Source of the DNA: Gemmobacter caeni
GTDB lineage: Bacteria > Pseudomonadota > Alphaproteobacteria > Rhodobacterales > Rhodobacteraceae
Length of the DNA: 64,000 nt
Reading direction: 5' to 3'
NCBI RefSeq assembly: GCF_003054195.1
Contig: NZ_QBKP01000009.1
Span: 62,001-126,000 of the forward strand
The notes beneath the pieces were generated by a model, which did no database searches, was not told the origin of the DNA, and saw only the letters and a program-made list of their open reading frames with translations. Made by a program: the position numbers and the translations under genes. Below are positions 11,316 to 47,503 of the stretch, one piece after another; the first letter of the stretch is position 1, and every line of letters starts with the position of its first letter.

Positions 11316-13289
11316 ATGATTTCAGAGCTTGGGCATTTCGCGCTGGTGCTGGCACTGGCGGTGGCCGTGGTACAGGCGGTGGTGCCGCTGATCGGGGCGC
11401 AGAAGCGCTGGTCGGGGTGGATGGCAGTGGCCGATCCGGCGGCGGTCGTGCAGTTTGTGCTGATCGCGGTGGCCTTCGGGGCACTGACCTGGGCTTTCGT
11501 GACCTCGGATTTCTCGCTGCGTCTTGTGGTGCTGAACAGCCATACCGACAAGCCGATGCTCTACAAGGTCTCGGGCGTCTGGGGCAACCATGAGGGGTCT
11601 CTGCTGCTCTGGGTGCTGATCCTTGCCGCCTATGGCAGCGCGGCGGCGCTGTTCGGCGGCAACCTTCCCGCAACGCTGAAGGCGCGGGTTCTTTCGGTGC
11701 AGGGGATGATCGGGGTGGCTTTCCTCGCGTTCCTTCTGTTCACCTCCAATCCTTTCCTGCGTCTGGCCGAACCGCCACTGAACGGTGACGACCTGAACCC
11801 GCTGCTGCAAGACCCCGGTCTCGCCTTCCATCCGCCCTTCCTCTACCTCGGCTATGTCGGGCTCAGCATGGCGTTCAGCTTTGCCGTCGCGGCGCTGATC
11901 GAGGGGCGGGTTGATGCCGCCTGGGCACGCTGGGTCCGGCCCTGGACACTGGCGGCTTGGATCTTCCTGACCATCGGTATCGCGCTGGGGTCGTGGTGGG
12001 CCTATTACGAGCTTGGCTGGGGTGGCTTCTGGTTCTGGGACCCGGTCGAAAACGCCAGCTTCATGCCCTGGCTGTTTGCCGCGGCCCTGCTGCATTCCGC
12101 CATCGTGGTGGAAAAGCGCGAAAGCCTGAAGGCATGGACGATCCTTCTGTCCATCCTCGCCTTCGGATTCTCGCTGATCGGCACGTTCATCGTACGCTCG
12201 GGTGTCATCACCTCGGTCCATGCCTTTGCCAATGACCCAGAACGTGGCGTGTTCATCCTGATGATCCTTGGTGTCTTCATGGGTGGCGCGCTGACGCTGT
12301 TTGCCGCCCGTGCCGGCGCGATGGAGGCGAAGGGCATCTTCGCCATGGTCAGCCGCGAAAGCGCGCTGGTGGTGAACAACCTGCTGCTGGCAGTTGCGGC
12401 CTTCGTGGTCTTTGTCGGCACGATCTGGCCCTTGGTGGCCGAGATGCTGTGGGACCGCAAGCTGAGCGTCGGCGCCCCGTTCTTTGACGCGGCCTTCTCG
12501 CCCTTCATGATCGGTCTGGCGGTACTTTTGCCCATTGGCGCGATGCTGCCGTGGAAGCGGGCCGAGGTCGGGCGCGTGTTCCGGCAACTGATCCCCGCGC
12601 TGATCCTGGCAGTGGCCTGTGGTTTGCTGGCCTGGGCGCTGGAAACCGGCCGTTCGGCGGTGGGGCCGGTGGCGGCGGCGCTTGGCGCCTGGCTGGTGTT
12701 CGGCGCGCTGACCGACCTTTGGGCGCGCACCGGGCGTGGCGCGGTCCGCGGGCGCCTGCAACGCCTTGGCCGTCTGCCGCGCGCCGACTGGGGCCGCGTG
12801 ACCGCCCATGCCGGGCTGGGCGTCACGATGATTGCGGTCGGCGCGATGAACGCCTGGGCGACCGAGATCATCAAGGTCGTGCAGGTGGGCGAAAGCTTCC
12901 CGCTGCATGGCTATGAGGTGACGCTGAACAAGGTTGAACAGGTCGAGGGTCCGAACTACCTGTCCACCATGGCCGAGATGGCGGTGCGCCGCGACGGGCG
13001 CGAAGTGGCGGTGCTTTACCCCGAAAAGCGCGTCTATCCGGTGCAGGCCATGCCGACCACAGAAGCCGCGCTGGATTACGGCTTTTTCCGTGACATCTAT
13101 CTGGTGATCGGCGATCCGCAGGATAACGGCGGCTGGGCGATCCGGGGCTACTGGAAACCACTGGCGAACTGGCTGTGGATTGGCGCCGCGCTGATGGCGC
13201 TGGGGGGGCTTCTGTCCCTTTCGGACCGCCGCTACCGCGTGGCGGCAGGGGCAGCCCGGCGCGCGGCTGCCCCGGTCGCGGCGGAGTAA
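11316..13289 (+). CDS. ccmF: Cytochrome c-type biogenesis protein CcmF (heme lyase subunit)
   Basis: A 657-residue polytopic inner-membrane protein, the usual CcmF length, with about 15 hydrophobic segments. It contains the VWGNHEGSLLLW segment and the WWD heme-binding domain GWGGFWFWDPVENASFMPW. CcmF with CcmH attaches heme from CcmE to apocytochrome c in the periplasm. The ATG behind AAGGGAG is chosen; an upstream reading would run through the hairpin cluster. ccmH follows after 4 bases. ccmE and ccmI are not in the window. Confidence 0.95.
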   Translation: MISELGHFALVLALAVAVVQAVVPLIGAQKRWSGWMAVADPAAVVQFVLIAVAFGALTWAFVTSDFSLRLVVLNSHTDKPMLYKVSGVWGNHEGSLLLWVLILAAYGSAAALFGGNLPATLKARVLSVQGMIGVAFLAFLLFTSNPFLRLAEPPLNGDDLNPLLQDPGLAFHPPFLYLGYVGLSMAFSFAVAALIEGRVDAAWARWVRPWTLAAWIFLTIGIALGSWWAYYELGWGGFWFWDPVENASFMPWLFAAALLHSAIVVEKRESLKAWTILLSILAFGFSLIGTFIVRSGVITSVHAFANDPERGVFILMILGVFMGGALTLFAARAGAMEAKGIFAMVSRESALVVNNLLLAVAAFVVFVGTIWPLVAEMLWDRKLSVGAPFFDAAFSPFMIGLAVLLPIGAMLPWKRAEVGRVFRQLIPALILAVACGLLAWALETGRSAVGPVAAALGAWLVFGALTDLWARTGRGAVRGRLQRLGRLPRADWGRVTAHAGLGVTMIAVGAMNAWATEIIKVVQVGESFPLHGYEVTLNKVEQVEGPNYLSTMAEMAVRRDGREVAVLYPEKRVYPVQAMPTTEAALDYGFFRDIYLVIGDPQDNGGWAIRGYWKPLANWLWIGAALMALGGLLSLSDRRYRVAAGAARRAAAPVAAE

Positions 13290-42206: not shown

Positions 42207-46597
<4,391 letters not shown>

Positions 46598-46660: not shown

Positions 46661-46675
46661 GTTCTCAAAAAGTTC
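46661..46675 (+). promoter_or_regulatory. SOS box 1: GTTC-N7-GTTC
   Basis: GTTCTCAAAAAGTTC is an exact match to the alphaproteobacterial LexA-binding direct repeat GTTC-N7-GTTC. TTTACA, a possible -35 hexamer, follows immediately. Confidence 0.8.
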
Positions 46676-46698
46676 TTTACAGGATGTGAATCATGTGA

Positions 46699-46713
46699 GA
46701 ACAATAATGGAAC
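46699..46713 (-). promoter_or_regulatory. SOS box 2: GAAC-N7-GAAC
   Basis: GAACAATAATGGAAC is an exact LexA box in the opposite orientation to box 1, 38 bases away centre to centre. It overlaps AACAAT, a possible -10 hexamer 18 bases from TTTACA, so LexA binding would block the promoter. Confidence 0.75.
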
Positions 46714-46731
46714 AAACGACAGGAGGTTCCG

Positions 46732-46854
46732 ATGCTGAAGGAAGTCAAAGCCATCATCACCCGCTCCCGCGCAACTTTGCTGGAGGATGCCGCCGGGGCG
46801 GTCTCGCTGTTCGTTCTCTTGATTGTCGGCCTGAATCTGCCAGGCCTTGCCTGA
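46732..46854 (+). CDS. 40-residue membrane protein, probably SOS-induced
   Basis: A short reading frame: a charged amphipathic N-terminus (MLKEVKAIITRSRATLLED) and one transmembrane helix at about residues 20 to 38 (GAVSLFVLLIVGLNLPGLA). ACAGGAGGTTCCG is a strong ribosome-binding site. Two LexA-type boxes lie upstream and a strong terminator downstream, so it is a self-contained transcription unit. Size, topology and SOS control recall Caulobacter SidA, a 29-residue inner-membrane division inhibitor, but I see no sequence proof of homology. Confidence 0.75.
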   Translation: MLKEVKAIITRSRATLLEDAAGAVSLFVLLIVGLNLPGLA

Positions 46855-46966
46855 GCCGCTGACACTGCCGGTTTTTCACTGCCTGCGGTCTGTTAAGGGC
46901 GCATCGACCCCAAGCGATGCCCGCGTCACTGTCCCCGACGCACCTGCCTGCCAGACACGCCACTCA

Positions 46967-46998
46967 CCGCCGCAGCATGACTGCGGCGGTTTTTTTTT
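46967..46998 (+). terminator. Strong intrinsic terminator after the SOS-controlled small gene
   Basis: CCGCCGCAG and CTGCGGCGG form a perfect 9-base-pair stem with a 5-base loop, followed by nine T residues. The stop codon of the convergent Fe-S scaffold gene lies at the end of the T-run. The 112 bases between the small gene and this hairpin also contain a GCATCG/CGATGC stem and may form a structured 3' UTR. Confidence 0.92.
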
Positions 46999-47437
46999 AT
47001 GCGGCCTCTGCCGCCGTGATGGCCTCTGCCAGCGCCTCGATCGCCAGCAGGATCGAAGCGTGGCGGTTCTTGTAATCCCGCGCGGGCAACAGCACTTCGA
47101 ACCCGGCGAAAGCGCCCGAAGGCGGTGGCGCCCCGTCCTTCAGCATGGCGCGCAGCGCGTCCCGCGCAGCTTCAACCTCAGCCCGGTTGCGGCCGATGGC
47201 GGCACCGCCCACCACGGCGGCCGAGGCCTGACCCAGTGCGCAGGCCTTCACGTCCTGCGCAAATTCCGCGACGCGGCCATCCCGCATCACCACATCTGCC
47301 GTGATGGTCGAGCCGCAGACCGGCGAGCGGCGGCGCGCGCTGCCCTGTGGCGCGGGCAGGCGGCCCAGATGCGGGATGTCGGCGGCCAGGGCCAGAATCC
47401 GGCCGGAATAGAGTTTCACAAGATCGCTGTCGCTCAT
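46997..47437 (-). CDS. NifU/SufU-like iron-sulfur cluster assembly scaffold
   Basis: A 146-residue protein starting MSDSDLVKLYSGRILALA. Cluster-ligand cysteines are visible in SPVCGSTIT and VKACALGQAS. The third position, usually a cysteine in R-I/V-K-C, reads KNRHASILL here, so one ligand appears to be missing. The family provides a platform for nascent Fe-S clusters. The chosen ATG follows GGAGAAAAG. Confidence 0.78.
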   Translation of the reverse strand: MSDSDLVKLYSGRILALAADIPHLGRLPAPQGSARRRSPVCGSTITADVVMRDGRVAEFAQDVKACALGQASAAVVGGAAIGRNRAEVEAARDALRAMLKDGAPPPSGAFAGFEVLLPARDYKNRHASILLAIEALAEAITAAEAA

Positions 47438-47503
47438 CGCTTTTCTCCGCCGCTGTCCCCGCATAGATAGACCTGCAACTGCGGCAATGCAAAGGAGGCG
47501 CCG

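Follow-up and report, generated by a model that had tools for sequence, protein, structure and literature searches.

A short transcription unit is found immediately downstream of ligA and recG in the window, which is the whole stretch of 64,000 nucleotides of Gemmobacter caeni DNA that was analyzed. It includes a promoter-like site with two LexA-type boxes, a 40-codon open reading frame (ORF), a 3' untranslated region (UTR) with predicted RNA structure, and a terminator shared with a convergent gene. These elements and their neighbors are as follows.

42264-44516: LigA, upstream of RecG
44486-46597, + strand: recG (RecG), the upstream neighbor, conserved next to the gene; context outside the unit
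46661-46675, + strand: LexA-type box 1, GTTC-N7-GTTC, GTTCTCAAAAAGTTC, a sequence match that adjoins the -35 element
46676-46705, + strand: promoter-like TTTACA (46676-46681) and AACAAT (46700-46705), with 18-nt spacing
46699-46713, - strand: LexA-type box 2, GAACAATAATGGAAC, GTTC-N7-GTTC in inverted orientation, overlapping the -10 element; exact in the window
46722-46726, + strand: ribosome-binding site GGAGG, from the sequence
46732-46854, + strand: 40-codon ORF (ATG at 46732, TGA at 46852-46854) for the predicted single-helix protein MLKEVKAIITRSRATLLEDAAGAVSLFVLLIVGLNLPGLA
46879-46964, + strand: predicted conserved structured 3'-UTR RNA (covariance model R1, 100.3 bits)
46885-46892, + strand: 5' strand of the outer stem P1, GCGGTCTG; partner CAGACACGC at 46952-46960, with one A bulged
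46901-46920, + strand: arm P2, GCATCG - ACCCCAAG - CGATGC, in the structure used for R1
46923-46941, + strand: arm P3, GCGTC - ACTGTCCCC - GACGC, in the structure used for R1
46942-46951, + strand: ACCTGCCTGC, unpaired in the R1 structure, containing a UGCCUG motif
46966-46998, + strand: intrinsic terminator (46966-46990) with nine T residues (46990-46998)
46997-47464, - strand: convergent SufU-like gene, ending at the shared terminator

The TTTACA/AACAAT pair is the sole promoter-like site between positions 46400 and 47300, where shuffled sequences give 0.1. The product of the convergent gene scores 43 bits against the SufU model, below its cutoff of 92.5, and a SufU-like gene is found downstream in 55 of the 79 loci from named records that were examined. 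A preliminary description of this DNA had reported two exact LexA boxes of opposite orientation bracketing a promoter, followed by GGAGG, a 40-codon gene and a nine-T terminator; all of these are present where it placed them. Its placement of the gene right behind ligA-recG is likewise borne out, by the position and identity of both upstream genes.

Distribution and properties of the 40-residue protein

Searches with the single window protein find matches in 29 of 61 genomes, namely, 29 of 37 in Rhodobacteraceae and 0 of 24 in other families. A 28-row profile, applied to genomes at least 90% complete with E-values calculated per genome, recovers the gene in 365 of 390 Rhodobacteraceae genomes and 136 of 139 genera. 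Twenty of the 25 profile misses were inspected, 7 through the promoter and 13 through recG, and 18 of them carry the ORF; it is absent in the other two (G289 and G327), the latter of which retains a promoter-like stretch. Among seven further family genomes from the single-protein search that were checked through recG, four have the gene (G011, G014, G025, and G026), two lack it (G018 and G027), and one (G024) gave no readable recG end. Since the profile and the anchored checks recover the gene, most of the single-protein misses reflect limited sensitivity, and the idea that many family members lack the gene, raised by that search, is ruled out. In a class-wide search, all five Rhodobacteraceae members match. 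Outside this family, a match is seen in 1 of 284 genomes; it is partial, falls within a frame of 246 codons, and is taken as chance. Judged from these surveys, the gene is nearly universal in Rhodobacteraceae and occupies a single chromosomal locus.

Retrieval with the promoter pattern from named records, an arbitrary subset that partly covers the same genomes as the survey, gives at least 118 loci, of which 115 encode the protein (score of at least 20). Among the named-record matches listed, the immediate upstream gene is recG in 111 of these 115 gene-encoding loci. The four loci that have promoter and protein and show no recG match within 400 bases upstream are L185 (Frigidibacter albus), L267, L284, and L295. 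Three loci fail the protein score: a cyanobacterial one (L211), evidently a chance match, one from Roseicyclus without a match (L280), and one from Sagittula marina (L202). In the last, the promoter is present, the protein match is weak, and the family frame ends after 13 residues, through either gene loss or a sequence error. At the locus of G327 (L169), GTTC-N7-GTTC, TTTAC, and GAACAA are kept behind recG with no family ORF downstream, and another short transcript with a terminator-like end seems to replace the gene.

A phage or plasmid origin was considered and rejected, as there is no phage match and none of the 28 profile members matches PHROGs. The plasmid set contains one match, on a 1.58-Mb replicon of Pseudorhodobacter turbinis.

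In every one of the 299 sequence pairs compared, pN is lower than pS; the same holds for all 33 disjoint pairs, whose median pN/pS is 0.21. By this codon-level comparison, the ORF is coding and under purifying selection. None of the 28 members matches Pfam (E up to 0.1), and the window protein has no match in NCBIfam. AlphaFold2, run with the family alignment, predicts one continuous helix of residues 2 to 39 (mean pLDDT 88). Weighted conservation over 106 distinct proteins is highest at G22 (100%) and D19 (98% Asp plus 2% Glu), followed by P37 (92%) and L34 (89%); in the same set, residues 20 to 34 are an uncharged hydrophobic stretch. The product is almost certainly a small membrane peptide with a single predicted span. 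Conservation is not significantly concentrated on one face of the helix, whether residues 19 to 37 (p 0.06) or residues 22 to 36 (p 0.28) are tested, and this result was counted against a role in division.

In Paracoccus, where the profile is weak or fails, the same promoter stands before shorter proteins, most of them 31 residues long (MTREFLSDLLGVTALSVITGVMLWLPAILQA is an example), so that much of the charged N-terminal stretch is dispensable. Orthology of the shortest Paracoccus forms, whose profile score is not significant, is taken from the promoter, the position relative to recG, and the D..G..LP motif. The family core, as read from the alignment, is thus D-x-x-G, a predicted membrane helix, and L-P. 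The protein had been described as an amphipathic segment plus a membrane helix. A small single-span membrane protein is well supported by the comparative sequence data; the amphipathic N-terminal part can be missing, as it is from most versions in Paracoccus, and is thus no essential feature of the family.

The promoter and its LexA-type boxes

The bare GTTC-N7-GTTC box is common: three copies are found in the window against 1.3 expected, a number reached in 12 of 100 shuffles, and the source genome has 165 copies against 72 for the reversed control. The number of boxes is therefore weak evidence, and the case for a control element rests on conservation. GTTC-N7-GTTC precedes the gene in all 60 loci that were found by the protein alone. 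It is also present in 114 of the 115 gene-encoding loci among the named-record matches listed, which by construction were selected with a promoter pattern containing part of the box. Since the arrangement is conserved across Rhodobacteraceae, the occurrence of two boxes within 53 bp at a promoter is not due to chance. In the protein-derived loci, an additional upstream GTTC with six-base spacing is found in 53 of 60, and GAAC-N7-[GC]AAC covers the -10 region in 57 of 60. The exact pairing of boxes described earlier holds for the window and for few relatives: the second box is exact in just 11 of the 60 loci, and relatives usually have GAAC-N7-CAAC instead.

From 74 loci, the consensus obtained is gttc-N6-GTTC-N7-GTTC-TTtAC-N15-TGagAAcAA-N5-cAAc, in which TTTAC and TGAGAACAA are strongly conserved. 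The derived pattern AGTTCTTTAC-N14-20-GAACAA is found in 152 of 196 family genomes, as a single copy in 150 and in two copies in 2; beyond Rhodobacteraceae, 1 of 284 genomes has it. Two extra pattern matches (L139 and L140) were inspected, and no such gene is found there.

In the source genome, GTTC-N7-GTTC is located at lexA (C3:348719; the LexA domain match is 45 bases away) and at recA (C9:179554; the RecA domain match begins at 179683). It is also found at uvrA, at genes for a DinB-type polymerase and a methyladenine glycosylase, at an S24-peptidase/IMS-polymerase pair, and at an imuA-imuB-like pair, whose identity was read from the sequence without a family match. For this group, the consensus by which LexA sites are recognized consists of GTTC/GAAC motifs (PMC6473078). 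The same study predicts LexA sites in Dinoroseobacter shibae at lexA, recA, dprA, and other genes; recG is absent from its main text (PMC6473078).

There is accordingly little room for doubt that the promoter of the 40-residue peptide is a LexA target, with binding in vivo predicted from the boxes, and the gene is expected to be induced by DNA damage in the cell. The SOS control proposed in the preliminary description is well supported by comparative sequence data, and the homologues and upstream boxes that it expected in relatives are both conserved there. Recognition of the boxes by a regulator other than LexA might be suggested by the array GTTC-N6-GTTC-N7-GTTC ... GAAC-N7-CAAC, which is more elaborate than a single LexA box, and by the occurrence of the promoter pattern once per genome in 150 of the 152 matching family genomes. 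However, the match to the LexA consensus of the group (PMC6473078) and the presence of the same box at lexA, recA, and uvrA make such a regulator very improbable.

Some other copies of the box deserve a mention. The third copy in the window (11769-11783, - strand, GTTCAGTGGCGGTTC) has a G+C-rich center and is probably a chance occurrence. The box GTTCTCATTGTGTTC is found twice in the source genome, at G000:C1:564163 (L075) and G000:C9:2411, and a gene for an SOS response-associated peptidase (SRAP) begins about 350 bases from the former. AT-rich copies at G000:C13:6239 (L146) and G000:C32:2957 (L147), on contigs that may be plasmids, adjoin related genes that resemble KlcA-type antirestriction genes (read by eye, without a family match).

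The 3' untranslated region

The part of the message downstream of the stop codon was previously described as a terminator. The terminator is indeed present, but a conserved structured RNA in front of it was overlooked, and this RNA, carried on the same message as the peptide, is the main addition to the earlier observation. The sequence from the stop codon to the terminator is alike across genera. Its layout combines an outer stem with hairpin arms that differ in number between genera, and the motifs CUGCCUG, CUGUCCC, and UGCCUC lie between or in the arms. Because of this difference in arm number, plain MAFFT alignment and RNAalifold over 59 UTRs yield little beyond the terminator; group-wise folding and a comparison of cognate with noncognate stem partners were used in their place.

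Among 110 loci, 18 have no terminator within 200 bases downstream and were excluded from the RNA tests, leaving 92 UTRs, 88 of which were scored after removal of the terminator (four were too short). The mean z-score of their folds relative to shuffled sequences is -2.34 (n = 88), with 53 UTRs below -2 and 22 below -3. In 64 nonredundant sequences of 84, the outer stem pairs far better with the partner from its own sequence (-19.5 kcal/mol) than with partners from other species (-13.0 kcal/mol). None of 20,000 permutations, which treat related sequences as exchangeable, is as low, and in 14 of the 64 the own partner is the best of all. An additional 79 nonredundant sequences, all new, give -18.7 versus -12.3 kcal/mol. 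For the arm around the first GUCCC, the values are -9.5 (own) and -6.7 (other) in 52 sequences, with the own partner first in 5. A reversed-segment control still differs by 1.7 to 1.9 kcal/mol, with no permutation as low, whereas a mid-segment control differs by 0.1. Composition thus explains part, but not most, of the advantage of the own partner. Two observations count against the overall interpretation: for the UTR of the window itself, the folding advantage over shuffled sequences is weak (z of -1.35), and within the window's genus the stems hardly vary, both sides having changed in 1 of 19 pairs. Taken over the family, the comparative data identify the 3' UTR (46879-46998) as a conserved, covarying structured RNA.

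When the source genome is scanned with covariance model R1, which was derived from the window's genus, a single good copy is seen (100.3 bits); the next match has 16.9 bits and an E-value of 9.5. Over 71 sources, R1 gives 18 matches, and its weak scores outside the genus mean that it is not a family-wide model. Rfam searches produce no match at the gathering threshold. The best match, suhB/mmgR (RF00519), has 24.4 bits against a threshold of 41, and identity with suhB was rejected on this score.

That the conserved 3' structure has some function, as we infer, is quite probable. The motif UGYCY, chosen after inspection of the sequences, is found 3.98 times per RNA (350 occurrences versus 126 in shuffled sequences, z of 25); in 87 of 88 RNAs, its bases are, on average, less paired than those of the remaining sequence. 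Stable stems beside terminators commonly protect messages, and the structure might do no more than stabilize the message or aid its processing or termination, with no role in trans. The differing number of arms between genera and the lack of a known target are in line with this possibility, which is somewhat less likely than not; what speaks against it is that the UGYCY loops, a post hoc motif, are kept while the stems vary. By eye, the CCUGUC-type loops of the UTR are partly complementary to the ribosome-binding site region GACAGGAGG (46719-46726) of the same message, so that 5'-3' pairing in cis is conceivable.

In Rhodobacter sphaeroides, the homologue of the gene (position 1,264,700) lies on a 3,188,524-base contig, which we take to be chromosome 1 of strain 2.4.1. 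Given that identity, the 5' end of the small RNA UdsC (1,289,874) is about 25 kb away, and UdsC was rejected on position as the same RNA. UdsC/RSP_7527 offers a parallel in that a small-protein message of about 300 nt yields an sRNA cut from its 3' UTR (PMC6238624; PMC9779115), but its promoter is reported to be RpoHII dependent.

Possible roles of the peptide and the RNA

The closest analog of the peptide is SidA of Caulobacter crescentus, a 29-residue inner-membrane protein of the same bacterial class that is SOS induced, has a single helix, and acts on FtsW (PMC4211646); sidA is described as an early and strongly expressed SOS gene (PMC12700426). The likeness is one of size, predicted helix, and SOS control and does not come from sequence comparison, and the present family differs in being found only in Rhodobacteraceae, with its D..G..LP core and structured 3'-UTR RNA. 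DidA, YneA, SosA, and ChiZ are likewise small damage-induced membrane proteins that act on late division proteins. However, most of these are longer or have additional domains (LysM, for instance), DidA is SOS independent, and in the accounts available none of them is said to have a structured RNA on its message. YneA uses its membrane helix to bind transmembrane helix 7 of FtsW, and models, albeit of low confidence, put SidA, SosA, and ChiZ on FtsW as well (PMC13396833). The membrane helix of YneA alone is reported to bind FtsW without blocking division (PMC13396833), and DinQ depolarizes the membrane, reportedly without an effect on filamentation (PMC3567139); both observations count against a role of the present peptide in division. 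Because SOS-induced single-helix peptides inhibit division elsewhere, the same may hold here, and the division-checkpoint role raised in the preliminary description is an analogy of this kind, with SidA, YneA, and similar proteins; by this analogy, inhibition of division is a prospect for which the arguments are evenly balanced, with a component of the divisome as the presumed target.

Two other roles can be envisaged. The peptide might regulate another membrane protein, such as a protease, a transporter, or a respiratory or secretion component, and have no direct part in division. Small single-span proteins mostly exert their effect on a larger membrane protein to which they bind, and a D..G..LP core would be compatible with any partner. 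Yet SOS control is described as typical of division inhibitors of such build, and the only conserved neighbors, recG and in many loci the SufU-like gene, do not suggest another partner, which leaves this role rather unlikely. The peptide could also resemble TisB and DinQ, which are SOS-regulated single-span inner-membrane peptides; DinQ is toxic and depolarizes cells (PMC3567139). Insertion into the inner membrane would then lower the membrane potential and ATP and lead to dormancy or nucleoid change, leaving the divisome untouched. Such an activity would suit a single-span peptide of this size under SOS control, but TisB and DinQ are encoded in type I toxin-antitoxin loci together with antisense RNAs (PMC3567139), whereas here the promoter closely follows recG in most named loci, GGAGG stands close behind the promoter, and inspection reveals no apparent room for an antisense gene. 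In addition, the gene is not patchily distributed but occupies one chromosomal locus in nearly all family members, and a TisB/DinQ-like activity, too, is unlikely, marginally more so than regulation of another membrane protein.

In the preferred interpretation, a LexA-repressed message would specify a SidA-like division inhibitor together with a structured, perhaps trans-acting, RNA; as a whole, this could as easily prove wrong as right. In undamaged cells, LexA bound to the -35 box and the -10 box would shut the dedicated promoter behind recG. RecA on single-stranded DNA would promote self-cleavage of LexA, and the promoter would fire a message of about 290 nt. The peptide, of 31 to about 43 residues, would enter the inner membrane as one helix, probably with its N terminus inside. 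There, the Leu-Pro end, together with the conserved Asp and Gly close to the inner edge, might bind a membrane protein of the divisome, most likely FtsW (or FtsI or FtsN), and septal wall synthesis would be held until repair finishes. The multiarm 3' RNA would expose about four UGYCY motifs and may be a second product, either a base-pairing RNA or a protein sponge, or may protect or tune the message.

More tentatively, the locus might be a damage checkpoint with two products, in which the micropeptide stalls the divisome while the UGYCY RNA captures a protein or pairs with messages. The dicBF operon of Escherichia coli likewise produces from one message a small protein and an sRNA that both act on division (PMC10448788). 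That locus, however, belongs to a prophage and is controlled by DicA rather than LexA, the sequences are unrelated, and a trans role of the RNA is, in the present case, a proposal. On this equally tentative comparison, the locus would be a chromosomal, family-wide parallel to dicBF within the core SOS response.

The openly available literature that was searched yielded no account of this gene or RNA, and the papers found contain no statement of how Rhodobacteraceae halt division upon DNA damage. At the thresholds applied, neither the peptide nor the RNA reaches a family in Pfam, NCBIfam, or Rfam. The gene is thus a nearly universal candidate for damage-linked division arrest in the Roseobacter group, Rhodobacter, Paracoccus, and Gemmobacter. 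If this role is correct, the 31-residue Paracoccus form would be among the smallest natural single-helix division inhibitors and would offer a handle on divisome control; if the RNA is functional, it would add posttranscriptional control to the SOS response.
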